Assembly: GCA_902812365.1 (NCBI GenBank)
Contig: CADDZC010000005.1
Coordinates: 1-35,000, forward strand
From: Acidobacteriota bacterium
GTDB taxonomy: Bacteria; Acidobacteriota; Terriglobia; UBA7540
Direction: 5' to 3'
Length of the DNA: 35,000 nt
Part shown: positions 3,938-34,154 of the stretch, piece after piece
Position numbering within the stretch: the stretch's first letter is position 1
Layout: every line of letters starts with the position of its first letter
The notes under the pieces: generated by a model
What the model saw: the letters and a program-made list of their open reading frames with translations, nothing else
Told to the model about the DNA's origin: nothing
Database searches by the model: none
Made by a program: the position numbers and the translations under genes

Positions 3938-5824
3938 TCAATCATTCATCACAAACAGCTTTTGCGGATCCAGGTGGACGAGCCATGGTGAAGGCTGGTC
4001 CTTCAAGGCGGACCACGCCCCCTTAAAAATTTCGGCCTCCAGGTGATGATCGAGACCACCTTTTAGGGGCGTATCGAGGCGCAGGTAGAGCGTCATGCGA
4101 AAAGGAGTCTCACTGGCGCGCACCAGCCGGCAGCGAAAAGTGTTGGGCAAGACCGGGTGTTCACTGGCTAACGACAAGGCGAGGTGGTGGGCCCGAATAC
4201 CCACGTAAGCGACGGTTTCGGGAACCGCTTGGTTCACCTGAACCGCGCACCCCCAGTCAAGCGCCTCAACGCAATCCGACGCGATTTTCCGGGCCCGGGA
4301 TAGATTTTTGCAACCCGTCACCCGCGCCACCACATAAGAGGGGGGACGGCCGAACACCGCCTCTTTGGGTCCGAACGCGACATTCCTTCCTGCCGAGATC
4401 ACTAGCAGGTGTTTCGAGATCCGGTATGCCTCCTCCAGATTGTGGGTGACGTAAAGCGTGACGCCGCGGTAGGAGCCGAGGGCCTCGATCAGCTGCATTT
4501 CCATCTGGCTGCGCAGGTACGTATCCAGCCCCGAAAGCGGTTCGTCGAGCAGCATCGCTTCAGGATTGACGGCCCGAGCGCGGGCCACGGCCACCCTCTG
4601 TTGCTGGCCCCCGGAAAGCTGGTGCGGATAACAGTGTTGATGGCTATTCAGCTGGACAGCCTCCAGCAGCTCCCGAACTCTGCGCTGCCTCTCTTGCCGG
4701 TCCAGGTGACGTAGCCCGAAGGCGACGTTCTCCGCCGCGGTCAGGTGCGCGAAAAGGCCATAGTTCTGGAAGACAATTCCGATTCGGCGCTCACGGCTGG
4801 GTACGTTGATCCCGGCTTGCGAGTCGAAAAGCACGCGGCCATTCAGCACGATTCGACCTCGGTCGGGGGTTTCAAGGCCTGCGATGCATCGCAAGGTCAT
4901 CGTCTTGCCGGCGCCCGAGACGCCCAGCACGCCCAGGGGCTCCTTGCCAATGGCAAATGCTACCCGCAGGGTGAAGTCGGCGAGGCTCTTTTCGATGTCG
5001 ACTGAAAGGTGTACGCCACGTGCGAGCGCCTCGCCTGGCCCGGCGGTGACCGGAGCTTGACCCATGCGGGAGTCAGAGCCCCGGAGCGCCACCGATGCAT
5101 CGGCCGCGCGATAATCGAGCGCCGGAAGATCGATATCACTCGGGCGGACAGCCCTGGAAACCACCGCGTAACCCCGCCCGGACCAATAGTGAAGCACTGC
5201 AATCACGACCAGTGAAATGGCAACCACAAAAAGTGTCCAGAACGCCGCCTGCGCCATCTGTCCCCCCTCGACCGCGAAGTAGACGGCGATCGGCAGCGTC
5301 TGGGTGACGCCGGGAATGTTGCCGGCGAGCATCAGTGTGGCGCCAAATTCGCCGAGGGCGCGGGCGAAAGCCAGGCTGGTGCCGGCCAGCACTCCGGGCC
5401 AGGCGAGCGGCAGCAGGATGCGCACCAAGATCTCGATTTCGGAGGCGCCCAGGGTGCGTGCCGCCTGCACTGCGTTGAAATCCACTTGGTCGAATGCGGC
5501 CGCGGTGGTTTTATACATCAGCGGAAAAGCAACCACCGTGGAGGCGATCACCGTGGCCGGCCAAGAAAAGACCACGCTCGTACCGAGGCGGGCAAGAACC
5601 CAGCCGACGGGGCCGCTCTTGCCAAATAACATCAGCAGCAGGAAGCCGACAATGGAGGGCGATAATACCAAGGGCAACAACAGTAATCCGTCCAACCATC
5701 CTTTTGCTCGACCGCGATACTGGGCCATTCGGTAGGCCGCGGCAATTCCGAAGACGAACGAAACCGCCGTCGCGGCCAGTGCCGTCTTCAACGAGATCCA
5801 AATGGGCGTGAAATCAAACAGCAT
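3938..5824 (-). CDS. modBC: Molybdate-type ABC transporter, ModB permease fused to ModC ATPase
   Basis: A single 628-residue polypeptide combining both membrane and motor parts of an oxyanion importer. Residues 1-225 are a ModB/CysU-type permease with about five membrane segments and the EAA loop ([10 protein letters not shown]...[11 protein letters not shown], 121-148; RALGEFGAT at 155-163). After a linker of about 40 residues comes the ATPase: Walker A GVSGAGKT (301-308), Q-loop Gln353, signature LSGGQQQR (403-410), Walker B AMLLDEP (423-429) and switch His461. The C-terminal 120 residues resemble the regulatory extension of ModC. The start at 5824 (MLFDFTPIW) is preferred because it matches where permeases of this family begin and overlaps queG by only 11 bases; an in-frame ATG at 5881 would overlap by 68. 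No periplasmic binding protein ModA is in the window. Tungstate or sulfate as substrate cannot be excluded. Confidence 0.85.
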
Positions 5825-7181
5825 GAGACCCGCGCGACCCGGCCGGAATCGAGCAACGAGATGGTTGGTGATCCCCCGCATGACTCGACGCTCGGTGGTC
5901 GGCGCTGTGCAATTGGGCGAGAGCCCACGCGGCGTGCTCTTGCACCAAAGGATCCTGGTGCTTCCGGAGTCGTTCCAGCCAAGGAATGAATCGGAAATCG
6001 CCCGAATTGCCGATCACTACGCACAAGTTTCTAAGCCAGCCGCGAAATTTCACCCGCTTGATGGGAGAGTGGGCAAAGACGCGGCCAAAGTTTTCCTCGT
6101 CGAGGGCAACGAGGGCCTCGATAGGTGGATGAAACAGGGAAAGCGTCGGAGTCTGGCATCCCGAGCCCGGGGTGGAGAGATCTGCGGGCGCGGATACAGC
6201 CTCTGACGTCATCATCGGCCGAAACTCCGGCACCTTGCTGAGCGCGGCTCGCTGGCGCCGCGCGCCGAACGGTGGCGATCTGAAGCTATTGCCGGCCGCG
6301 TAATCGCAGCCTTCTCTTTTGTCCTCGATTCGGCCTGCTGAACCTTGATTGTTCCAGGGGCAGACATCCTGACAGATATCGCACCCGAACAGGTTAGAGC
6401 CGATTGCCGGTCGGAACTCCACCGGGATCGAGCCTTTCAGTTCGATGTTGAAATAGGCAATACACCGCGAAGCGTCCATCACATACGGCTCAATCAGCGC
6501 CCCAGTAGGGCAGGCATCCAGGCAACGGGTACACGAGCCGCATCGGTCGGGCGCCGGTAGATCAGGCTCAAGATCAAGGTTGGTCAGAATTACCCCCAGG
6601 AAGAACCAGGATCCCTTGCGCTGGTTGATCAGGCAGGTGTTCTTACCCATCCAGCCGATGCCAGAAAGGCGCGCGAAGGCCCGCTCGACCACCGGTCCGG
6701 TGTCCACAAAAACTCGTGTCTCAACCCCCGGCACCAGGCCTTCCAGATCGGCGCGAACCCGTTCGAGTCTGGAACGCATCACCTCGTGGTAGTCGTTGCC
6801 CCACGCATAGCGAGAAATCCAAGCGCGAGGAGATCCGCACTGGTGTCCGGGGTCGGTGTGAGGCTCTTCTTGGCTTCCAAGCGGGGCCGCGGCCTGTGTA
6901 ACCTCGTTCTCGACCAGCGTGGACCGCCGGCAGACTTCTATCGAATACGGCCAAGGCGCGTTGTACACGAGGCCCACACATAAGACGGATTTGGCAGAAG
7001 GCAGGACGGATCGGGCATCGGCCCGTTTGGGATTCCTGAGGTAGTGCATCTCGCCGCCGTAACCCCGTTCGGCCCACCGCCGAGCAAATTCGAGGTCGTG
7101 CCAGGCAGCCAGTGGGGCAATACCAACCAAGTCGAATCCAGCGGCAAGAGCGCGTTCCTTAACGGTCAGGCTCAGGCTCAC
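5814..7181 (-). CDS. queG: Epoxyqueuosine reductase QueG
   Basis: Catalyses the last step of queuosine synthesis, reducing epoxyqueuosine in the wobble position of tRNAs with GUN anticodons, using cobalamin and two [4Fe-4S] clusters. Visible are the N-terminal domain, the RYAWGNDYH motif, VDTGPVVERA with the likely acid Asp160, a ferredoxin-type CGSCTRCLDACPTGAL (Cys214, 217, 220, 224) and CDICQDVCPWN (Cys267, 270, 274) with Cys240 between them. A HEAT-like tail follows. The protein is longer than usual: about 30 extra residues precede RYAWG and about 45 follow CPWN. The GTG at 7181 (MSLSLTVKERALAAGFDLVGIAP region) is chosen because it agrees with family N-termini; a TTG at 7274 is the longer alternative, and neither has a strong ribosome site. 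It lies upstream of and overlaps modBC. The tRNA-His(GUG) in this window is a type of tRNA it would act on. Confidence 0.9.
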   Translation of the reverse strand: MSLSLTVKERALAAGFDLVGIAPLAAWHDLEFARRWAERGYGGEMHYLRNPKRADARSVLPSAKSVLCVGLVYNAPWPYSIEVCRRSTLVENEVTQAAAPLGSQEEPHTDPGHQCGSPRAWISRYAWGNDYHEVMRSRLERVRADLEGLVPGVETRVFVDTGPVVERAFARLSGIGWMGKNTCLINQRKGSWFFLGVILTNLDLEPDLPAPDRCGSCTRCLDACPTGALIEPYVMDASRCIAYFNIELKGSIPVEFRPAIGSNLFGCDICQDVCPWNNQGSAGRIEDKREGCDYAAGNSFRSPPFGARRQRAALSKVPEFRPMMTSEAVSAPADLSTPGSGCQTPTLSLFHPPIEALVALDEENFGRVFAHSPIKRVKFRGWLRNLCVVIGNSGDFRFIPWLERLRKHQDPLVQEHAAWALAQLHSADHRASSHAGDHQPSRCSIPAGSRGSHAV

Positions 7182-7644
7182 AAACTCTATGGTAACCCAA
7201 CGGCGGCAGATTAAAGTTATCCGAACAATCGTCCCGAACTTCCCCGCGAGGGCTCTCGCCCAACGTCGGTGCAAGCACCAGCCGCCATGTGCGATCTTCG
7301 CATCTAAAACGTTGATTTATAAGCACATGGTGGATCTCCGTTCACATCATCTTTTGTGCCGTCCAACCCTTCCAGGCAACCATTCGGCAGAAATTGCTTA
7401 ACCTGCCCGCACCCTCTACCTAGCATGAAACATGCCGACCGGCACCTCGTAGCTTCAGGCGACTGCCTTGAACTCGGATGCTGGGTTGACTTCTTGACTT
7501 CTCCCGGCCATGAGAGGCCGCCGGTCTCGCGGCTGAGAGAATTTTAATCCGGCGGCGGGCGCCGGCGCGACGAAGATTGGACTCAACCAACAGCCACGCG
7601 GCCCGTTAGCGATGGCTGATCTTAAACTAGAGAGGTACCGAGCG
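7182..7644. promoter_or_regulatory. Divergent intergenic region between queG and the radical SAM gene
   Basis: No convincing gene. An 8-base inverted repeat, CCATGTGC (7285-7292) and GCACATGG (7323-7330), encloses a second small palindrome GCGA-TCT-TCGC (7291-7301) and an AT-rich element TTATAA (7317-7322) that reads as a -10-like box on both strands. This placement could serve control of both divergent genes. A GC-rich 7-base inverted repeat, CCGCCGG (7519-7525) and CCGGCGG (7549-7555), lies nearer the radical SAM gene. No well-matched -35 box was found for either direction. Confidence 0.35.
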
Positions 7645-9777
7645 ATGCCAAGAATTCGAGGTCAGCGGCTGATGAAGTACGTTGACGGCGCCCTCGTGGC
7701 GACGGCCAGCGTTACCTTCGATACGATCCAGTTTTTCAATAAATATCACCCCAACGACACGTTCATCCCGAAATGGTCTGACAAGCCCCTTTTGAAGTCT
7801 TGGCAGAAGACCAAGCCCCAACTGGGCTGGCCTCGCACCACCGATTCGTTGTGCCCGGGTTGCGTGAAGGAGGCCCGGGAGCGCATCATCAACGGCGAGC
7901 AGGACCTCGAGACACTGAAGACGGAGAAAGTCGGCGAGATCAAAGCCCAGATCATCGAGCGCGACGGCCAAGTGTGGATGATCAAAGACTGTCCGATTCA
8001 CGGTCATTATGAAGACCTGATGGCGGTCGACTCCAAGTTCCTCGCCTGGATCGAGAAAAACTTTCCTGGCCGCGATATTCGCGCCCATAACGACGAAAAG
8101 CTTCACAACCACGGCTCGAGTACGATTAAGCACGGGCGGGGCTCGGTGTTAACCGTCGACCTGACGAACCGCTGCAATATGATGTGCGATCCCTGCTTCA
8201 TGGACGCCAATCAGGTGGGCTTCGTCCACGAACTGAAGTGGGAAGAGATCAAGGAGATTCTAGATAACGCCCTCAAGATCAAACCGCGCCGCCAAATGTC
8301 CGTGCAGTTCTCAGGCGGCGAGCCCACCATGTCGCCTTACTTCATTGACGCCATTCGTTACGCGCGCAAGCTCGGGTACAACAGCGTGCAGGCGGCGACC
8401 AACGGCATCGAATTCGCTAAGAGCAAGGAGTTTTGCCGGCGCGCCTTTGATGCCGGGCTCCGTTACGCTTATCTGCAGTTCGACGGCATCGGTAACGACG
8501 CCAACAGCCACCGGCAAGTCGGAAATCTTTTCGATGTGAAGCTGAAGGCTATCGACAACATGCACGAGGCCGGAATCGAAATTATCCTGGTCACCACGTT
8601 GGTCAACGGCGTCAATAATGACCAGGTGGGTCCTATCATTAACTTTGCCCGCGAAAATCCTAAGAAGATTGCGTTCATCGCCTTCCAGCCGGTCTCTTTC
8701 ACAGGACGCGATGAAGACATCACGCCGGAACGCCGTCTCCGCCAGCGATACACCCTTTCCCATATGGCCCGGGACGTAAAGGAGCAGGTGGGCATCACCG
8801 AACCTACTCGCGACTGGTTTCCAATTTCGCTGATGGGTGCCTTTGCGGATTTCGCCGACTTAGTTCATGGTCCGGAAGCCCAATGGGGCCAAGTCAGTTG
8901 CGGATGTCACCCTAACTGCGGCGTCGGTACGGCCTTGATGATCAACAAGGAAACCAAGGAAATGGCTCCGGTTCCGGAATTTCTCAACATTCCGGGGCTG
9001 GTGAAGGACATGCAGAAGATCACCGACGCCGGGCGAGGCAAGTGGTTCTCGAACTTTATGATGGCCTTGGCCCTGCTTAAGAACTACAAGCCGTTCAAAG
9101 CGCCCAAAAGCCTCGCCCTTGTGGATTTGCTCAAGAAGTTTGATAAGTCATTCGCCTTGCGGGGCGACCAGAAGGCCCGCAAGGTTTATGGGGATTCCAG
9201 CCCTGAACGTACCCTGGAAGACGCCCTGAAACGCCGGTCCGACCCGTGGAACTTTCTTTTCATTGCTGGCATGTGGTTCCAGGACCTGTTTAATTATGAT
9301 TTTCGCCGCACCGAGATGTGCATCATCCCGTACGCCACGCAAGAGGGCGAAATCTCCTTCTGTGCCTACAATACGGGGATCGGCTGGCGGAAGATCATCG
9401 AGAACATGCACAAGAACGCTACGGTGGCGGAATGGTACAAAAAGCACGGCAAGCACGAGATTTACGCCAAAGGGAAGAAGGTGAACCTCGAGAATTACGA
9501 ACATTCGCTGTACGTTGACCCCAAGGACGCCGCCCGCGTCCGCGAACGCCAGCACGACGTCCCGATGACGGCTGCCGAAGAGGAAAAGGCTCGCCGCAAG
9601 GCCGCCTGGGAGGCGCAGCAGGTGCGGCAGCTTTACGAAGAGCTGGTTCTAAAAAAGCCGGCTCCGCAGATCGTCCAGATCGGTCCTCCCCTGGGTTCTT
9701 CGAATGGCAACGGCTCTTCGGCCGGCCATATTGACAATGCTAAGCCCGCCGAAGTCGTCGAGAACGTGTCAGCTTAG
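7645..9777 (+). CDS. Radical SAM protein of the tetraether / membrane-spanning lipid synthase (Tes/Mss) type
   Basis: A 710-residue radical SAM enzyme. The cluster motif is CNMMCDPC (Cys177, 181, 184), with SGGEP at 223-227 for SAM binding. An N-terminal LCPGC (Cys70, 73) and KDCPIHGHY (Cys116) form a rubredoxin-like metal-binding pattern; SCGCHPNCG (Cys419, 421, 425), Cys559 and Cys573 (FCAYNTG) could hold auxiliary clusters. This layout is what I know from archaeal Tes and bacterial Mss, which join lipid tails by carbon-carbon coupling to make membrane-spanning lipids; several acidobacteria make such lipids (iso-diabolic acid). The C-terminal 100 residues are charged, then low-complexity Gly/Ser/Asn, and appear to be an extension. 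The ATG at 7645 is preferred since GAGAGG (7630-7635) precedes it by 9 bases; ATG 7612 has no ribosome site. It is a single-gene unit ended by a strong terminator. Radical SAM membership is certain, the substrate is inferred. Confidence 0.8.
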   Translation: MPRIRGQRLMKYVDGALVATASVTFDTIQFFNKYHPNDTFIPKWSDKPLLKSWQKTKPQLGWPRTTDSLCPGCVKEARERIINGEQDLETLKTEKVGEIKAQIIERDGQVWMIKDCPIHGHYEDLMAVDSKFLAWIEKNFPGRDIRAHNDEKLHNHGSSTIKHGRGSVLTVDLTNRCNMMCDPCFMDANQVGFVHELKWEEIKEILDNALKIKPRRQMSVQFSGGEPTMSPYFIDAIRYARKLGYNSVQAATNGIEFAKSKEFCRRAFDAGLRYAYLQFDGIGNDANSHRQVGNLFDVKLKAIDNMHEAGIEIILVTTLVNGVNNDQVGPIINFARENPKKIAFIAFQPVSFTGRDEDITPERRLRQRYTLSHMARDVKEQVGITEPTRDWFPISLMGAFADFADLVHGPEAQWGQVSCGCHPNCGVGTALMINKETKEMAPVPEFLNIPGLVKDMQKITDAGRGKWFSNFMMALALLKNYKPFKAPKSLALVDLLKKFDKSFALRGDQKARKVYGDSSPERTLEDALKRRSDPWNFLFIAGMWFQDLFNYDFRRTEMCIIPYATQEGEISFCAYNTGIGWRKIIENMHKNATVAEWYKKHGKHEIYAKGKKVNLENYEHSLYVDPKDAARVRERQHDVPMTAAEEEKARRKAAWEAQQVRQLYEELVLKKPAPQIVQIGPPLGSSNGNGSSAGHIDNAKPAEVVENVSA

Positions 9778-9802: not shown

Positions 9803-9842
9803 GGGCCGTCCAATCATTTGGCTGGACGGCCCTTTTGTTTTT
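9803..9842 (+). terminator. Strong intrinsic terminator of the radical SAM gene
   Basis: A perfect 10-base-pair stem, GGGCCGTCCA (9803-9812) with TGGACGGCCC (9823-9832), a 10-base loop, and an immediate T-rich tract TTTTGTTTTT (9833-9842). It lies 25 bases after the stop codon, so the radical SAM gene is probably transcribed alone. Confidence 0.92.
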
Positions 9843-26513: not shown

Positions 26514-26678
26514 AAGCGTGACTTCGGCCGTTTAGTAACGACCCGCGAGGTCTTAAATTCTTCTGGGCTGGTCCGCCGACCGGCTCTGTGAGCTGTTCTT
26601 TCAACGTGGGTTATTAGAATCGCCGCGCGGGTTACCGGATGGAGAATTGGAAGGCCGCCAAATTGGATGGTTTGTCTC

Positions 26679-26707
26679 TTTACAACGCGTCACCAGCGTG
26701 TCATATT
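26679..26707 (+). promoter_or_regulatory. Candidate promoter of the MocR-type regulator gene
   Basis: TTTACA (26679-26684) and CATATT (26702-26707) are 17 bases apart. A start near 26714 would leave a leader of about 50 bases before the ATG at 26767 and would exclude the longer open frame beginning at 26647. Confidence 0.4.
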
Positions 26708-26766
26708 GGATCCATCTCGATGGTAACAGTTGCATGGGCGTGGCAAACCCCTTCTGCGGGGATGGG

Positions 26767-28278
26767 ATGTGGATAACGCTCGATACCGGATTACCGCGGC
26801 CGCTATACGCTCAGATCCGCGATCAGATCCGCCAGCGGATCATGTCCGGCGCCCTCAATCCGGGCGACCGACTGGAGCCCAGTCGCGAACTGGCCCGCCA
26901 GCTTGGGGTTCACCGCACAACCGTGGGCAACGCTTATGCGGAACTGGAGGCAGAGGGGTTGATCGCGGGAACCGTCGGTCGGGGCACTTTCGTCTCGCCG
27001 CTGGCCGAAACGGTTCGGCGCGCCAGACGGGAAGGGGCGCAGGAGCGCTCCGATTCGTTTTGGGACAGCCTTCTCGACCGCGAGCCGCAAGACGATTCAC
27101 TCGGGCGGCTGGTGTCGAGCGTTTATGAGCCGGGGGTGATTTCATTCGCTATCGCGCACGGCTCCGATGAGCTGATCTCGGTCGATCGGGTGCGTCGGGC
27201 GATCGACGCCGTGCTGCGGCGTGAGGGTCCGGCACTGCTCCGATACGGTTCGAGCGGTGGCTACCGACCGCTCCGGCACTATATCGAGGGCTGCATGCGT
27301 CGTGCCGGAATCTCCGTGGAAGCGGAGCAGATCCTTATTACCAGCGGGTGCCAGCAATCGCTGGACCTGCTGCGCCGGTCACTGGTCGCTTCGGGCGACG
27401 TGGTGGTGTCAGAGAATCCCACTTATCCTGGCCTGTGGAACGCTTTTCAGTCCTCAGGCGCGCGGCTGATCGGAGTTCCGGTCGGGGAGGACGGCCTGGA
27501 CCTCGATCATCTGCTGGCCGTGCTGGAACGCACTCGCGTCAAACTGATCCTGGTGAGCCCGACCTTCCAGAATCCGACCGGTCGTACGATGTCGATCGAG
27601 GCCCGCCGGCGTCTATTGGAGATTGCGCGGCGCTTTCGGGTACCGATTGTCGAGGAGGACATTTACGGTTGGCTGCGGTACCGAGGCCGCGAGATGCCGC
27701 CTCTTAAGGCGTTAGACACGCTGGGCTTGGTGATCTACGTCAACAGCTTCTCGAAGGTCGGTTTCCCCGGATTGCGGGTGGGCTGGATCGTGGCCTCGCG
27801 ACGGGTCATCGAACGGTTGCGCTGGGCCAAGCAGCACGCGGATTTGCACACCAACGTTCTCGGGCAAGCGGCGCTCGACGAGCTGGGCCGCCGCGGTTGG
27901 CTCGATAGACTATTGCGCCGAACCAGAAGGCTATACGAACACAAGCTTGACGCCTTGTGCGACGCTCTGCGGCGGCATTTTCCGCCTGAGGCCCGTTGGA
28001 CTGACCCGCAAGGGGGAATGTCAGTGTGGGTGGAACTACCGCCGGGGACGGATGCCGGGGACTTATTGGTCAAAGCCCGCGACCGAGGGGTGATTTTTGC
28101 GCCCGGACGCTACTTCTACTTCCAGGACGTCAGGCATCATGCTTTCCGGCTCTGCTATAGCTCGCTCACCGACGACCAGATTGAGCGGGGAGTGGGCGTG
28201 CTAGGAAGTTTACTGAAGGAGGAGATGGGCAAGACCGGCAAATCGTCAACCGGTGCGGCCGAATTAGCTTTGGTTTAG
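26767..28278 (+). CDS. pdxR: MocR-family (GntR helix-turn-helix plus aminotransferase) regulator, PdxR-like
   Basis: A 503-residue transcription regulator: an N-terminal GntR winged helix (about 8-76; [40 protein letters not shown]), a linker, then a fold-type I aminotransferase-like domain. The PLP-site lysine is present at 330 in [10 protein letters not shown], with the upstream SPTFQNPTG (Asn) and EEDIYG (Asp) motifs, so it should bind PLP. In PdxR-type regulators PLP acts as the signal that tunes pdxST expression. Here pdxS begins 71 bases downstream in the same direction and pdxT follows two genes on, which strongly suggests this role. The ATG at 26767 is taken because [17 protein letters not shown] matches family N-termini and GGGGA lies just upstream. 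A free-standing aminotransferase is the alternative for the second domain, but the fused helix-turn-helix argues against it. Confidence 0.85.
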
Positions 28279-28295
28279 CGCTGAGGCCGGGGCGT

Positions 28296-28312
28296 GGTTC
28301 GAGCCGCGAACC
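28296..28312. promoter_or_regulatory. Palindromic operator candidate before pdxS
   Basis: GGTTCG (28296-28301), a 5-base spacer and CGAACC (28307-28312) form a perfect dyad in the 71-base gap between the MocR-type gene and pdxS, 37 bases before the pdxS ATG. Its position fits a binding site for the adjacent regulator or a small hairpin in the leader; this is inference. Confidence 0.4.
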
Positions 28313-28349
28313 GGGGGTTGAAGGATCCAGCGGTCAAAGGGGAGGTCCT

Positions 28350-29237
28350 ATGTGGGAATACGACGAAAAAATGAAGCTGAAAATCGGATTGGCGGAGATG
28401 CTGAAGGGCGGGGTCATTATGGACGTGACGACGCCCGAACAGGCCAGGATCGCCGAGGAAGCGGGAGCCTGCGCGGTCATGGCCCTTGAACGGGTGCCCG
28501 CGGATATCCGCAAGGAAGGCGGCGTCGCGCGCATGGCCTCGGTGAAGATCATTAAAGACATTATGGCTGCGGTGACCATTCCGGTGATGGCCAAAGCGCG
28601 CATTGGCCACTTTGCCGAGGCTCAGGTTCTCGAGGCGATCGGGGTGGACTACATTGACGAAAGCGAAGTGCTGACTCCCGCTGACGAAGAGCACCATATT
28701 AACAAGTGGCCTTTCAAGGTGCCCTTCGTCTGCGGTGCCCGCAACCTAGGCGAGGCCCTGCGGCGCATCGGAGAGGGCGCGGCCATGATCCGCACCAAAG
28801 GCGAAGCCGGCTCGGGGAACATTGTGGAAGCCGTCCGTCACCTGCGCGCCATCACCGGCGAAATTCGTCAGTTGACGGTGCTCCGAGAGGAAGAACTGAT
28901 GGCCAAAGCCAAGGAGCTGGGCGCGCCGCTCGAAATCGTGAAGTGGGTGGCCACGAACGGCAAGCTGCCCGTGCCGAATTTTTCGGCCGGTGGCATTGCG
29001 ACTCCCGCTGACGCCTCACTGGTGATGCAGCTCGGCGCCGAAGCTGTGTTCGTGGGGTCGGGCATCTTCAAGTCCTCAGACCCCGCAAAGCGCGCCCGCG
29101 CCATCGTCCACGCCACGACCCATTACCACGAGCCGCACGTTGTGGCCGAGTGCTCAGAAGACCTGGGTGAAGCCATGCGGGGGATCGACGTTTCGAAACT
29201 GGATCAGAAGGAGTTACTGCAGACACGAGGATGGTAG
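28350..29237 (+). CDS. pdxS: Pyridoxal 5'-phosphate synthase lyase subunit PdxS
   Basis: Builds PLP from ribose 5-phosphate, glyceraldehyde 3-phosphate and ammonia, in a dodecamer decorated by the glutaminase PdxT. The 295-residue (beta/alpha)8 protein keeps Asp25 (MDV) and both catalytic lysines, Lys82 ([10 protein letters not shown]) and Lys150 ([10 protein letters not shown]). The C-terminus with [18 protein letters not shown] is complete. ATG 28350 follows GGGGAGGT at 5 bases. It is next to the MocR-type regulator and upstream of osmC and pdxT, which places the DXP-independent vitamin B6 pathway in this organism. Confidence 0.97.
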
Positions 29238-29302
29238 AGGGATCGCTGCCGGCAGTCGGTGAGCAAGCCGGTGAGAATCCAGCGAGCACGAAAGGAGGCA
29301 CG

Positions 29303-29737
29303 ATGCCGATTCGGCATGCAGAAGCGGAATGGAAAGGCAATCTTACGGAAGGTCAAGGTCACATGAAGATCGGGACGTCCTACGACGGTCCGTTTTCGTT
29401 CAAATCCAGAATGGAACAGGGCCCGGGTACCAACCCCGAGGAGCTGATCGCCGCCGCGCACTCGGGCTGTTTCTCGATGGCCTTGTCAGCCGGGCTGGCG
29501 AAGGCCGGATTTTCGCCAAGGCGCGTCCACACCACGGCCGCGGTGCACTTCGACAAGGTGGGGGACGGGTTCGCCATTACCAGCATCGACTTGAACACTG
29601 ACGCGGAAGTCCCCGGCATTGACAACGCCAAGTTCCAGGAGCTCGCCGAGAGCGCCAAGAAGGGCTGCCCGGTCTCGAAGGCGCTGGCAGGAACGACGAT
29701 CAACCTGAAGGCGACGCTGGCAAGCGCAGCCGACTGA
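29303..29737 (+). CDS. osmC: OsmC-family peroxiredoxin
   Basis: A 144-residue OsmC/Ohr-family thiol peroxidase that reduces organic hydroperoxides. The two redox cysteines are Cys56 (AAHSGCFSMAL) and Cys122 (KGCPVSKAL), with the conserved Glu47 (NPEELIA). The GCFSMAL and KGCPVSKAL contexts fit OsmC rather than Ohr. The ATG at 29303 is set by an excellent AAAGGAGG ribosome site (29291-29298). It lies between pdxS and pdxT, 65 bases after the former and 90 before the latter, so it is likely in the same transcript; a link between B6 synthesis and oxidative defence is inferred from position only. Confidence 0.92.
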   Translation: MPIRHAEAEWKGNLTEGQGHMKIGTSYDGPFSFKSRMEQGPGTNPEELIAAAHSGCFSMALSAGLAKAGFSPRRVHTTAAVHFDKVGDGFAITSIDLNTDAEVPGIDNAKFQELAESAKKGCPVSKALAGTTINLKATLASAAD

Positions 29738-30406: not shown

Positions 30407-30493
30407 ACGAGATCGCCGGAACGGCTGAGGGTGCCCGCTGGCGAGGCTGAAGCCTTGCTGGGCGGGCGGCAGCTCATGTTTCGGGAGGAACGC

Positions 30494-30946
30494 ATGCGGG
30501 AACACGCCGATCATCACGATGCGGAACTGTTGCTGCGCCTGTACGAGTTGCGGCGCGAAGAAAAACTGCGCCGGGCGCGCGAGTGGTTTTCTCAGCAGTT
30601 CCGGGCCGAGTCGCTCGAAGATTTATTCAACCGCTACCCGTTTGGTTCGCCCGAAAACACGTATCTTCGCATGACGCTCGGCTACTGGGAGATGGCGGCG
30701 TCGATTGTCAATCGCGGGCTGATCGTCGACGATCTCTTCTTCGAGAATAACTCCGAGCTTTGGATGGTATGGACGAAAATCGCCCACTTGATGTCGCGAT
30801 GGCGCGACTGGTTCAAGAATCCTCACCTGTACGAAAATCTGCAAACTCTGGCCGGGAAATACGAGAAATGGATGGAAGGGCGCTCTCCTGGAGCGCTGGC
30901 CGTGCTCAGCGAGCGGTGGAAGGAGCCGGCCGCCGGGCGACAGTAA
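30494..30946 (+). CDS. Hypothetical helical protein, about 150 residues
   Basis: I do not recognise a named family with confidence. The protein is predicted to be mostly helical, with no signal peptide, a charged N-terminus (ELLLRLYELRREEKLRRAR), and an aromatic-rich middle and C-terminus (YWEMAASIVNRGLIVDDLFF, MSRWRDWFKNPHLYENLQ). This pattern resembles small DUF4760-like proteins of unknown role, but that assignment is weak. The ATG at 30494 is preferred because GGGAGG (30483-30488) sits 5 bases upstream; ATG 30476 is a longer alternative. It follows pdxT by 87 bases in the same direction and precedes the promoter of the molybdenum hydroxylase operon, so it may be the last gene of the pdx transcript. 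Confidence 0.7.
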   Translation: MREHADHHDAELLLRLYELRREEKLRRAREWFSQQFRAESLEDLFNRYPFGSPENTYLRMTLGYWEMAASIVNRGLIVDDLFFENNSELWMVWTKIAHLMSRWRDWFKNPHLYENLQTLAGKYEKWMEGRSPGALAVLSERWKEPAAGRQ

Positions 30947-31025
30947 TGGAGGGGCCCCCGGCCAGGAGATCGACAGGCTAGCCGTTCATCCCGCGGCCGA
31001 TCCGCCGGCGCTCGTTCATAAGCCG

Positions 31026-31054
31026 TTGACAATCTCGCGCCCCAGTCGTATATG
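31026..31054 (+). promoter_or_regulatory. Sigma-70 promoter candidate of the molybdenum hydroxylase operon
   Basis: A perfect -35 box TTGACA (31026-31031) and TATATG (31049-31054) are exactly 17 bases apart. The predicted start near 31061 gives a leader of about 100 bases before the coxS start at 31161, and that leader is structured (next entry). Confidence 0.65.
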
Positions 31055-31061
31055 TAGCGTG

Positions 31062-31126
31062 CTCCAGGTAGCTGGAAGCCGTTAGCGAAGCGGGACCAAC
31101 CTGGAGGCGTCGGGCGCTTGGGCGCC
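31062..31126 (+). promoter_or_regulatory. Structured 5' leader of the coxS-L-M operon
   Basis: Just after the predicted transcription start, CTCCAGGT (31062-31069) pairs perfectly with ACCTGGAG (31099-31106). Nested inside are TGG/CCA (31073-31075 with 31096-31098) and CCG/CGG (31079-31081 with 31091-31093), separated by purine-rich internal loops. A second hairpin, GGCGC-TTGG-GCGCC (31113-31126), lies before the ribosome site at 31146-31153. The layout is like a small cis-regulatory RNA or attenuator. I do not match it to a named riboswitch class. Confidence 0.4.
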
Positions 31127-31160
31127 GTGCCAGGCGGTTTCGTGAAAGGAGGTCGCCCCC

Positions 31161-31625
31161 GTGAAAATCAAGGTCAAGGTGAACGGCGCGTGGCGCGAAG
31201 ACGAGGTGGAACCGCGGCTGCTATTGGTGCATTACTTGCGCGATGTGGCGGGGCTGACGGGAACGCATATCGGCTGCGAGACCTCCATCTGCGGAGCTTG
31301 CACCGTTCTGGTGAACGGCGAGGCCGTGAAATCGTGCACGCTCTTCGCGGTTCAGGCCGACGGAGCCGAGATTTTGACGATCGAGGGACTCGCGCCCGAC
31401 GGCCAGCTCCACCCGTTGCAACAAGGCTTCTGGGAAGAACACGGCCTGCAATGCGGATTCTGCACGCCGGGAATGATCCTGGCCTCTTACCAGCTCCTGA
31501 AGCGCAATCCCCATCCGAGCCCGGAGGAGATTCGCCAGGGGCTGGAAGGAAACCTGTGCCGCTGTACGGGCTACCAGCATATTGTCAAGGCGGTCGAATG
31601 GGCCGCCGCAAGAATGAGTTCCTGA
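31161..31625 (+). CDS. coxS: Molybdenum hydroxylase small subunit, 2 x [2Fe-2S] (CoxS type)
   Basis: The electron-transfer subunit of a xanthine dehydrogenase/CO dehydrogenase-family hydroxylase. The 154-residue protein has a plant-type ferredoxin cluster site (Cys39, Cys44, Cys47, Cys59) and the helical C-terminal cluster site (Cys98 and Cys101 in QCGFCTPG; Cys133 and Cys135 in LCRCTGY). Both clusters are complete. The start is a GTG at 31161, fixed by AAAGGAGGT 7-8 bases upstream. No Tat signal is present, so the complex is cytoplasmic. It is the first gene of the S-L-M operon, 61 bases before coxL. Confidence 0.95.
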
Positions 31626-31686
31626 GCGCGCCGCTGGCCGCAACGGTGAGAGAGGGGAAGCGTCCAGCCTGCGGAAGGAGTTCGAC

Positions 31687-34014
31687 ATGGCCACTCCATT
31701 GTTAGGACAGCGCGTGAAACGGAAAGAAGACCCGCGGCTGATTCAGGGACGCGGCCACTACGTTGACGACATCCAGCTTCCCGGCATGCTGCACATGGCT
31801 TTCACGCGCAGCCTCCACGCCCACGCTCGGATCGGGTCGATCAGGGTGGCGGCGGCCAAAGCAGCCCCAGGCGTCGTGGCGGTGTACACCGGCCAAGACA
31901 TTCAAGGCCAGCTCGGCTGGGTACCGTGTGCGGCAGGGATCGAAGGCTTGAAAGTTCCCCGGCATTCGTGCCTGGCGATCGATAAGGTGTGTTACGTGGG
32001 TGAGCCCGTGGCGGCGGTGGTGGCCGCCAGCGGTTACGCGGCGCGCGATGCTGCCGACTTGATCGAAGTCGATTACGAACCCTTGCCGGCGGTGGTGAAT
32101 CCGGAAAAGGCGCTCGCCAAGGAGTCTCCGGTCATACATGAGGAGCTGGGCGACAATGTGGCCTTTGTGGCCAAGCTGGCGGGCGGCGACTGCGCATCGC
32201 TTGAGGCGGACAAAACTCTGAAGGTCATCAAGGCGCGATTCATCAACCAGCGTCTGGCGCCGGTGTCGATGGAGACGCGCGGCGTGGTGGCGAATTACTC
32301 GCCCGGCGAAGACCTATTAACGGTGTGGTCGTCAACCCAGGTGCCGCATATTCTCAAGACTCAGCTCGCCATCATGAACAGTCTCGACGAGGCGCGCTGC
32401 CGCGTGATTGCGCCCGAGGTGGGCGGAGGTTTTGGGAGCAAGCTGAATGTGTACGGAGAGGAAGGGATGGCTTGCTTGGCCTCCCGCCGATTGGGGCGGC
32501 CGGTGAAGTGGATCGAGGGGCGCCGCGAGAATCTGCAAGCCACGATTCACGGGCGCGATCAAATCAACGAGCTGGAGGTTTACGTTCGGCCGGACGGCAA
32601 GGTGGTGGGCCTGAAGTGCTCGATCATCGCCGATCTAGGCGCCTACCACCAGTTGCTGACGCCCGCCATCCCGACCCTGACCGCGTTGATGATCCTGGGG
32701 TGCTACAACATCCCCAACGTGTTCGTGCAGACGACCGGGGTCTTCACCAACAAAATGGCGACCGACGCCTATCGCGGCGCCGGCCGGCCGGAAGCGACCT
32801 ACATCATCGAGCGGGTGATGGACCTGGTCGCTCATGAGCTCAACATGGACCCGGTCGACGTCCGGATGAAGAACTTCCCATCGCCGGACGACTTTCCGCT
32901 CGCGCTCCCCACCGGGGTGACGTACGACACGGCCAACTATCAGAGGTCGTTGAAGAAGGTTTTGAAGGCGGCGGGTTACTCGCGGTTGCGGAAGGAACAG
33001 GAGCGGCTGCGGAAAAAGGGCAAGTATCTCGGCATTGGTCTTTCCACCTATGTTGAAATCTGCGCCATGGGACCTTCCAGCCGCATGCCGGCCGGCGGGT
33101 GGGAATTCGGCGAGGTCCGAATCGATCCGACGGGCAAGGTTACGGTGCTGAGCGGAACGTCGCCTCACGGTCAGGGGGAAGAGACGAGCTTTGCTCAGAT
33201 TGTCGCCGACGGCTTGGGAATCCCTTATGACGACGTAACCGTATATCACGGCGATACGTTTCAGGTTCCGATGGGTATTGGGACGTTTGGGAGCCGCACG
33301 ACGGCGGTCGGTGGCACGGCTATTTACCAGGCCATGGGGCGTCTCAAGAAGAAGATGGCGCGGATCGCGGCTCACCAGCTGGGGGTAAAACCCGGCGAGC
33401 TGGTATTCAGGGACCGCCGGATCGAGACCGAAGACGGTCAAAAGTCGATCGGTTTTGCCGAGGTGGTGGCCGAGGCGATTTTCGCCAAACAGCTTCCGCC
33501 GGGAATCGATCCCGGACTCCATGAACACTCCGTCTTCGAGCCGTCAAACTATACTTTCCCCTTTGGCGCGCACGTGGCGGTGGTCGAGGTGGATGGAGAG
33601 ACAGGGGAAATCCGATTGCGGAATTACTACGCCGTGGACGATTGCGGGCGCGTGCTCAATCCCATGCTGGTAGACGGACAGATTCACGGCGGAGTCGCGC
33701 AGGCCGTCGGGCAGGCCCTTTGGGAAGAACTGGTTTATGACGAAAACGGCCAACTCATCACCGGCTCGCTGATGGATTACGCTGTGCCCAAGGCTCACCA
33801 GTTCTGCTGGTTCGAAACCCAGAATACCGAGACCCGGACGCCGGTGAACCCACTAGGCGTCAAGGGCGTCGGCGAGGCCGGCACGATCGGCGCCACGCCG
33901 GCCGTGGTCAATGCCGTGGTCGACGCGCTCAAACCCTTCGGCGTGCGGCACATCGACATGCCTCTCAAGCCGGAGAAGATTTGGCGCATCCTGAAGCAAG
34001 GGGTGAGAAACTGA
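31687..34014 (+). CDS. coxL: Molybdenum hydroxylase large subunit, form II CoxL type
   Basis: The molybdopterin-binding catalytic subunit (775 residues). The N-terminus GQRVKRKEDPRLIQGRGHYVDD is typical of CoxL-type proteins; the Moco-binding segment includes PEVGGGFGSK (243-252), and the catalytic Glu lies near 730 in GVKGVGEAGTIG. The active-site loop reads AYRGAGR (361-367), the form II signature, not the AYXCSFR of genuine form I CO dehydrogenases with their Mo-Cu centre. The enzyme may therefore oxidise another substrate such as an aldehyde, a purine or an N-heterocycle; CO oxidation is unproven for this form. ATG 31687 follows GGAAGGAG at 6-7 bases. It needs molybdate, which the ModB-ModC transporter in this window might supply. 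Confidence 0.95.
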   Translation: MATPLLGQRVKRKEDPRLIQGRGHYVDDIQLPGMLHMAFTRSLHAHARIGSIRVAAAKAAPGVVAVYTGQDIQGQLGWVPCAAGIEGLKVPRHSCLAIDKVCYVGEPVAAVVAASGYAARDAADLIEVDYEPLPAVVNPEKALAKESPVIHEELGDNVAFVAKLAGGDCASLEADKTLKVIKARFINQRLAPVSMETRGVVANYSPGEDLLTVWSSTQVPHILKTQLAIMNSLDEARCRVIAPEVGGGFGSKLNVYGEEGMACLASRRLGRPVKWIEGRRENLQATIHGRDQINELEVYVRPDGKVVGLKCSIIADLGAYHQLLTPAIPTLTALMILGCYNIPNVFVQTTGVFTNKMATDAYRGAGRPEATYIIERVMDLVAHELNMDPVDVRMKNFPSPDDFPLALPTGVTYDTANYQRSLKKVLKAAGYSRLRKEQERLRKKGKYLGIGLSTYVEICAMGPSSRMPAGGWEFGEVRIDPTGKVTVLSGTSPHGQGEETSFAQIVADGLGIPYDDVTVYHGDTFQVPMGIGTFGSRTTAVGGTAIYQAMGRLKKKMARIAAHQLGVKPGELVFRDRRIETEDGQKSIGFAEVVAEAIFAKQLPPGIDPGLHEHSVFEPSNYTFPFGAHVAVVEVDGETGEIRLRNYYAVDDCGRVLNPMLVDGQIHGGVAQAVGQALWEELVYDENGQLITGSLMDYAVPKAHQFCWFETQNTETRTPVNPLGVKGVGEAGTIGATPAVVNAVVDALKPFGVRHIDMPLKPEKIWRILKQGVRN

Positions 34015-34154
34015 GACGGGTGGGCTGATCAGGTCATTCGATCACCGGGTCCTTGGACCGCCCAGCGGGGGCTTTGCGGGTCCGAAGGGCCTGATCATTC
34101 CGGCCATCGATTTTCCTGATTAGGTCGACCGATGCCACGAGGAGACGGCTGCTC
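34015..34154 (+). repeat. Structured intercistronic region between coxL and coxM
   Basis: TGATCAGG (34026-34033) and CCTGATCA (34090-34097) form an 8-base inverted repeat 56 bases apart. Between them GGTCC, GGACC and a later GGTCC can pair in alternative ways, and GCCC can pair with the following GGGGGC. This suggests a folded spacer that could set the L to M expression ratio or mRNA stability. No T-tract, so not a standard terminator. Confidence 0.4.

Follow-up and report, generated by a model that had tools for sequence, protein, structure and literature searches.

What does the Tes-like radical SAM gene at positions 7645..9777 (+) make, and is its product Tes itself? The gene lies in a window, the whole 35,000-nucleotide stretch of DNA analyzed here, for which the acidobacterial origin implied by the first-pass annotation is supported; the source genome comprises 3.5 Mb in 123 contigs and is 96.7% complete. 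Iso-diabolic acid accounts for a large share of the fatty acids of many soil acidobacteria and is also contained in Chloracidobacterium; the brGDGTs, lipids that serve as temperature and pH proxies, are presumably built from it. A membrane-spanning lipid synthase, Mss, has reportedly been defined from Thermotoga maritima (Sahonero-Canavesi et al. 2022). Among acidobacteria, subdivisions 1, 3, 4 and 6 contain iso-diabolic acid, which in cultured members of the first two reaches 20–40% of the fatty acids (PMC13274423), and in six Edaphobacter strains (class Terriglobia) it amounted to 11.8–30.4% with no ethers detected (PMC11354219). Edaphobacter aggregans has one Tes homologue with 32% identity, and closer homologues are found in Koribacter and Solibacter (42 and 40%, respectively) (PMC8941075). 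Solibacter, which has two Tes homologues, makes brGDGTs and contains undetectable levels of iso-diabolic acid (PMC10087280). Bacterial Tes homologues have already been proposed for brGDGT synthesis, with their activity unconfirmed (PMC11868695), and the available literature holds no confirmation of the enzyme that forms acidobacterial iso-diabolic acid.

The gene and its predicted fold

The open reading frame spans 7612..9777 (+) and contains 721 open codons, with ATG codons at 7612 and 7645. The latter is the better start, because a GAGAGG motif lies 9 nt upstream of it and it is in register with the starts of close homologues; it gives a protein of 710 residues. The strong terminator claimed for the gene in the first-pass annotation is real: a Rho-independent terminator occupies 9803..9842 (+), consisting of a perfect hairpin of 10 bp (9803-9832) and, after it, a T run, TTTTGTTTTT. 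Its 10-nt loop accounts for its absence from the output of the consensus scanner. The palindromic upstream region described in the same place amounts to an arm of 9 nt (89%) amid GC-rich sequence, which is not compelling, and we dropped it as an element. A promoter consensus scan gave a number of sites not above that in shuffled sequences. The gene is flanked upstream by a divergent QueG gene and downstream by a gene for a VWA-domain protein. Farther away in the window, a single 647-aa ORF at 3938-5881 (−) fuses an ABC-transporter permease domain (PF00528) to an ATPase domain (PF00005), and at 26647-29737 (+) a MocR-type regulator (GntR plus aminotransferase) precedes PdxS and an OsmC-like gene in what is probably a vitamin B6 locus under PdxR control.

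Pfam recognizes two domains in the 710-residue protein: an HMPTM N-terminal zinc-ribbon domain at residues 63-127, which corresponds to the rubredoxin domain of MJ0619, and a radical SAM core domain (PF04055) at residues 173-335 (8161..8649, +). The best NCBIfam model is Tes (NF045702) with 321 bits (3e-95), followed by TrsS (NF045646) with 217 bits, which reflects an N-terminal and radical SAM region in common. A sequence search of the PDB returned as its best match 7TOL, the GDGT-MAS of Methanocaldococcus jannaschii (E 6e-63), and the identity to this archaeal Tes (MJ0619; 7TOL/7TOM) is 32% over 473 aligned residues. An AlphaFold2 model built with an alignment of 83 relatives had a pLDDT of 90.0 and a pTM of 0.87. 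Superposition on the Tes structure, the check that the first-pass annotation had put forward, gave a match to 7TOM along nearly the entire chain, with a Z score of 42.3 and a deviation of 2.5 Å for 478 aligned of 498 residues; the second-best structure was MoaA, with a Z score of 20.1 over 272 residues. The predicted protein and GDGT-MAS thus have the whole fold in common.

Among the differences from GDGT-MAS are additions at the two ends of the chain and in one loop. An N-terminal extension of ~60 residues includes a predicted helix at residues 4-32 (7654..7740, +) that archaeal Tes does not have; relatives of the protein carry a similar N-terminal stretch of the KPIKYVEKGLTYAAKGAW type, and the helix is a possible membrane-surface anchor. 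The rubredoxin loop carries a 22-residue insertion. The C-terminal extension relative to archaeal Tes that had been noted before is also real, covering residues 620-710 (9502..9774, +); its sequence is weakly conserved, and residues 685-710 are predicted to be disordered.

Metal sites

The published ligand positions of GDGT-MAS (PMC9433317) were transferred by aligning MJ0619 with 134 members of the clade to which the protein belongs and 33 strict acidobacterial Tes sequences (those above the curated cut-off). Sequence numbering and published numbering coincide at all the ligands compared (C9, C12, C33, H36, C73, C77, C80, M439 and Y459), which supports the mapping. All the Cys motifs listed in the first-pass annotation were found in the protein, and their near-invariance over the 134 homologues excludes chance.

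Three of the four Tes metal sites are retained. The rubredoxin-type iron site, C70-x2-C73-x42-C116-x2-H119 (PF23545; 7852..8001, +), is made up of the CPGC and KDCPIHG motifs; its three Cys residues are invariant, and H119 is present in 133 of the 134 homologues. The CX3CX2C motif of the radical SAM cluster, C177/C181/C184 within CNMMCDPC (8173..8196, +), is likewise invariant. At the C-terminal auxiliary cluster, C425 of the SCGCHPNCG motif (8896..8922, +) aligns with C338 of MJ0619, C559 and C573 lie at 9319..9363 (+), and Met543 (9271..9273, +) aligns with Met439, the labile cluster ligand of GDGT-MAS. All four residues are invariant in the clade; we assign the Cys trio to this cluster by conservation, as the text of the paper names Met439 only. 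The equivalents of Tyr459 (Y563 here, within 9319..9363) and of the 5′-dAH contacts F106 and Q268 are kept in 133-134 of the 134 relatives, as is a further 5′-dAH contact of MJ0619, S271, in the clade; Arg210, also a 5′-dAH contact in MJ0619, is not conserved in the clade alignment.

The fourth site is missing. At the position of the N-terminal auxiliary cluster of Tes (8086..8121, +) the equivalents of Cys73, Cys77 and Cys80 of MJ0619 are a gap, His156 and Ser159, and none of the 134 clade members has a Cys at any of them (gap, His and Ser throughout, with one Ala at the third). In contrast, all three Cys residues are present in 33/33 strict acidobacterial Tes. The first-pass annotation had named a failure of the auxiliary-cluster cysteines to align with Tes/Mss as a refutation of its reading; against Tes this holds by half, since the C-terminal cluster does align and the N-terminal one is absent throughout the clade. 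H154 and H156 are invariant, so that a clade-wide H-x-H beside a near-invariant Ser stands in place of the missing cysteines. The clade also has two extra invariant cysteines compared with GDGT-MAS, C419 and C421 of the SCGCHPNCG motif, the second of which is also Cys in 26 of the 33 strict Tes.

Clade membership and distribution

A quick first tree with very long outgroup branches was replaced by a careful one. In both, strict Tes including MJ0619 falls outside the clade of the window protein, which the careful tree separates from the rest with 100/100 branch support and a long stem. Rooted on its single long outgroup row, which leaves the order of the Tes lineages around the clade unsure, the careful tree has the clade emerging among bacterial Tes. 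The protein is thus placed in a clade of its own and not in the Tes clade. It also scores below the curated Tes cut-off (321 versus 450 bits), no clade member is listed above this value, and with the N-terminal cluster cysteines missing as well we rejected its identity as Tes proper. TrsS was rejected as the host family at 217 bits against a cut-off of 490. The clade is a distinct, new Tes-like subfamily that does without the N-terminal cluster and is independent of ether-lipid genes (see below).

We surveyed 396 Acidobacteriota genomes, taking as clade members those proteins that matched with E below 1e-150 and as strict Tes those scoring over 450 bits. The clade gene is present in 182 of the 396 genomes, including 52/52 of the window's class, and is usually the sole Tes-family gene of its genome; strict Tes is found in 34, and the two kinds occur together in 13. 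The genome of the window itself holds no second Tes-family gene, its other radical SAM genes scoring far lower. Identity among the best 80 relatives of the protein is 72-88%. Named relatives come from Aridibacter famidurans, Candidatus Acidiferrum, Sulfopaludibacter and Pyrinomonadaceae, and others from groups gp2, gp4, gp5, gp13 and gp18; the gene is also carried by two complete genomes that we take to be those of Terriglobus saanensis and Luteitalea pratensis, and by presumably Chloracidobacterium-like genomes. A second, divergent clade paralogue is seen in one Pyrinomonadaceae-like family (f22; L174, L165, L166 and L176). Shorter acidobacterial relatives, in frames of 434-529 aa, match the Tes model only over its initial ~315-325 positions and do not have the C-terminal cluster domain.

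No conserved partner gene was found over 118 loci. The commonest upstream neighbour occurs in 26 of 85 A-type loci, one 439-aa example of it having no Pfam match, and QueG lies upstream in 15 loci. With no conserved lipid operon around the clade genes, we discarded neighbourhood as a guide to function. Strict tes genes, which belong to the same superfamily and phylum, do lie close by in places: one directly follows the clade gene on the same strand in G253 (L167:7820-12000), and in G111 and G067 (L168 and L169) the two are 3-6 kb apart.

Candidate reaction and its alternatives

By analogy with GDGT-MAS, we consider tail coupling of ester-linked acyl chains the most likely function of the window protein; it is probably associated with the membrane and uses radical SAM chemistry to couple phospholipid acyl tails into ester-bound iso-diabolic acid lipids. 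The reading draws on a predicted fold far closer to 7TOM than to other radical SAM structures, on ligands kept in almost every relative, and on a gene that is carried by all 52 genomes of its class, where Edaphobacter makes iso-diabolic acid, and is mostly alone of its family. It also draws on the binding of bacterial phosphatidic acid by GDGT-MAS itself (PMC9433317) and on the strict tes gene next to the clade gene in G253. Tail-to-tail coupling as proposed by the first-pass annotation is thus plausible, although the enzyme to which it was ascribed is not Tes itself. Against the coupling reading stand the missing N-terminal cluster, the unconserved Arg210 and the lack of a lipid-gene neighbourhood, and bacterial Tes homologues are so far without demonstrated activity (PMC11868695). 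What connects the gene with iso-diabolic acid is that their distributions match at the level of groups.

Substrate, product and mechanism are modeled on GDGT-MAS. The substrate would be a pair of saturated acyl chains in membrane phospholipids, presumably both iso-C15, to be joined end to end. Cleavage of SAM at the CX3CX2C cluster would yield a 5′-deoxyadenosyl radical that takes a hydrogen from one chain end, and the C-terminal [4Fe-4S] cluster, with C425, C559 and C573 and the labile ligand Met543, would hold the resulting chain radical. Cleavage of a second SAM for the other tail would then allow the two tails to join, with the N-terminal surface cluster of Tes dispensed with.

Alternatively, iso-diabolic acid could be the product of a separate Mss-type enzyme encoded elsewhere in these genomes, and the window protein would then have an unrelated radical function. 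The proposed reaction of Mss is the same acyl tail-to-tail coupling; homologues have been called at E ≤ 1e-30 and over 30% identity, and Mss models from AlphaFold reportedly have the Tes architecture (PMC13274423). Activity in E. coli is reported for the T. maritima mss gene (PMC11604127). As the genome of T. maritima contains no match to the Tes model at E ≤ 1e-40, a route to diabolic acids outside the Tes family exists; by the same comparison, the window protein at 3e-95 is much nearer to Tes than any T. maritima protein. Its unrelated neighbours, QueG and the VWA-domain protein, would suit such an explanation, which we nevertheless regard as unlikely, as the fold, the catalytic cofactors and the distribution all point to lipid coupling and conservation of the clade is strong in groups where iso-diabolic acid is abundant.

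The fold and catalytic cluster would also suit a strict-sense acidobacterial tetraether (brGDGT) synthase that couples Ger-made ether lipids, and the distribution of the Ger/PlsA domain PF09989 bears on this directly. Strict Tes tracks the domain (25/34 versus 61/362 genomes; odds ratio 13.7, uncorrected for shared ancestry), the pairing being seen in 10 of the 14 family codes that hold strict Tes, whereas the window clade has no association with it (37/182 versus 49/214; odds ratio 0.86, likewise uncorrected). Both the co-occurrence of Ger with strict Tes and the clade's lack of that link are new here. A strict tes gene adjoins a Ger/PlsA-type gene at G262:C59:1631-6031 and G184:C20:59513-64044, each likely a brGDGT locus. 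In 42 of the 52 genomes of the window's class the clade gene occurs without a PF09989 gene, so any membrane-spanning lipids in these genomes' hosts would be expected to carry ester bonds, barring a different route to ethers. The genome of the window itself (G000) does encode, on contig C23 at 30430-34032 (L189:6431-10033, +), a Ger/PlsA-like protein of 1201 aa with two BcrAD_BadFG domains and DUF2229 (PF09989), the 'BB' architecture that has been tied to alkyl ethers (PMC13274423), and the organism might therefore make ether versions. Given the pattern across genomes, we think it improbable that the window protein is itself the brGDGT synthase.

Another modification of the tails, such as ring formation or radical methylation at C5/C6, seems least probable: the first annotation given to MJ0619 was class D radical SAM methylase (PMC9433317) and acidobacteria do methylate iso-diabolic acid at these carbons (PMC13274423), but the C-terminal cluster, which in GDGT-MAS carries the alkyl intermediate, is conserved in full, labile Met included, and in most genomes of the class coupling would then need an enzyme other than the sole Tes-family gene.

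Returning to acyl-tail coupling as the preferred function, a division of labour among Tes-derived couplers can be entertained tentatively, in which strict Tes with Ger would produce ether-bound brGDGTs and the cluster-less clade ester-bound iso-diabolic acid, the loss of the cluster being perhaps an adaptation to aerobic life. The clade gene, strongly conserved and present also in culturable relatives in Edaphobacter and Terriglobus, is the strongest candidate for the source of the membrane-spanning fatty acids that are common among soil acidobacteria, and its natural lack of the N-terminal auxiliary cluster bears on the role of that cluster in archaeal Tes.
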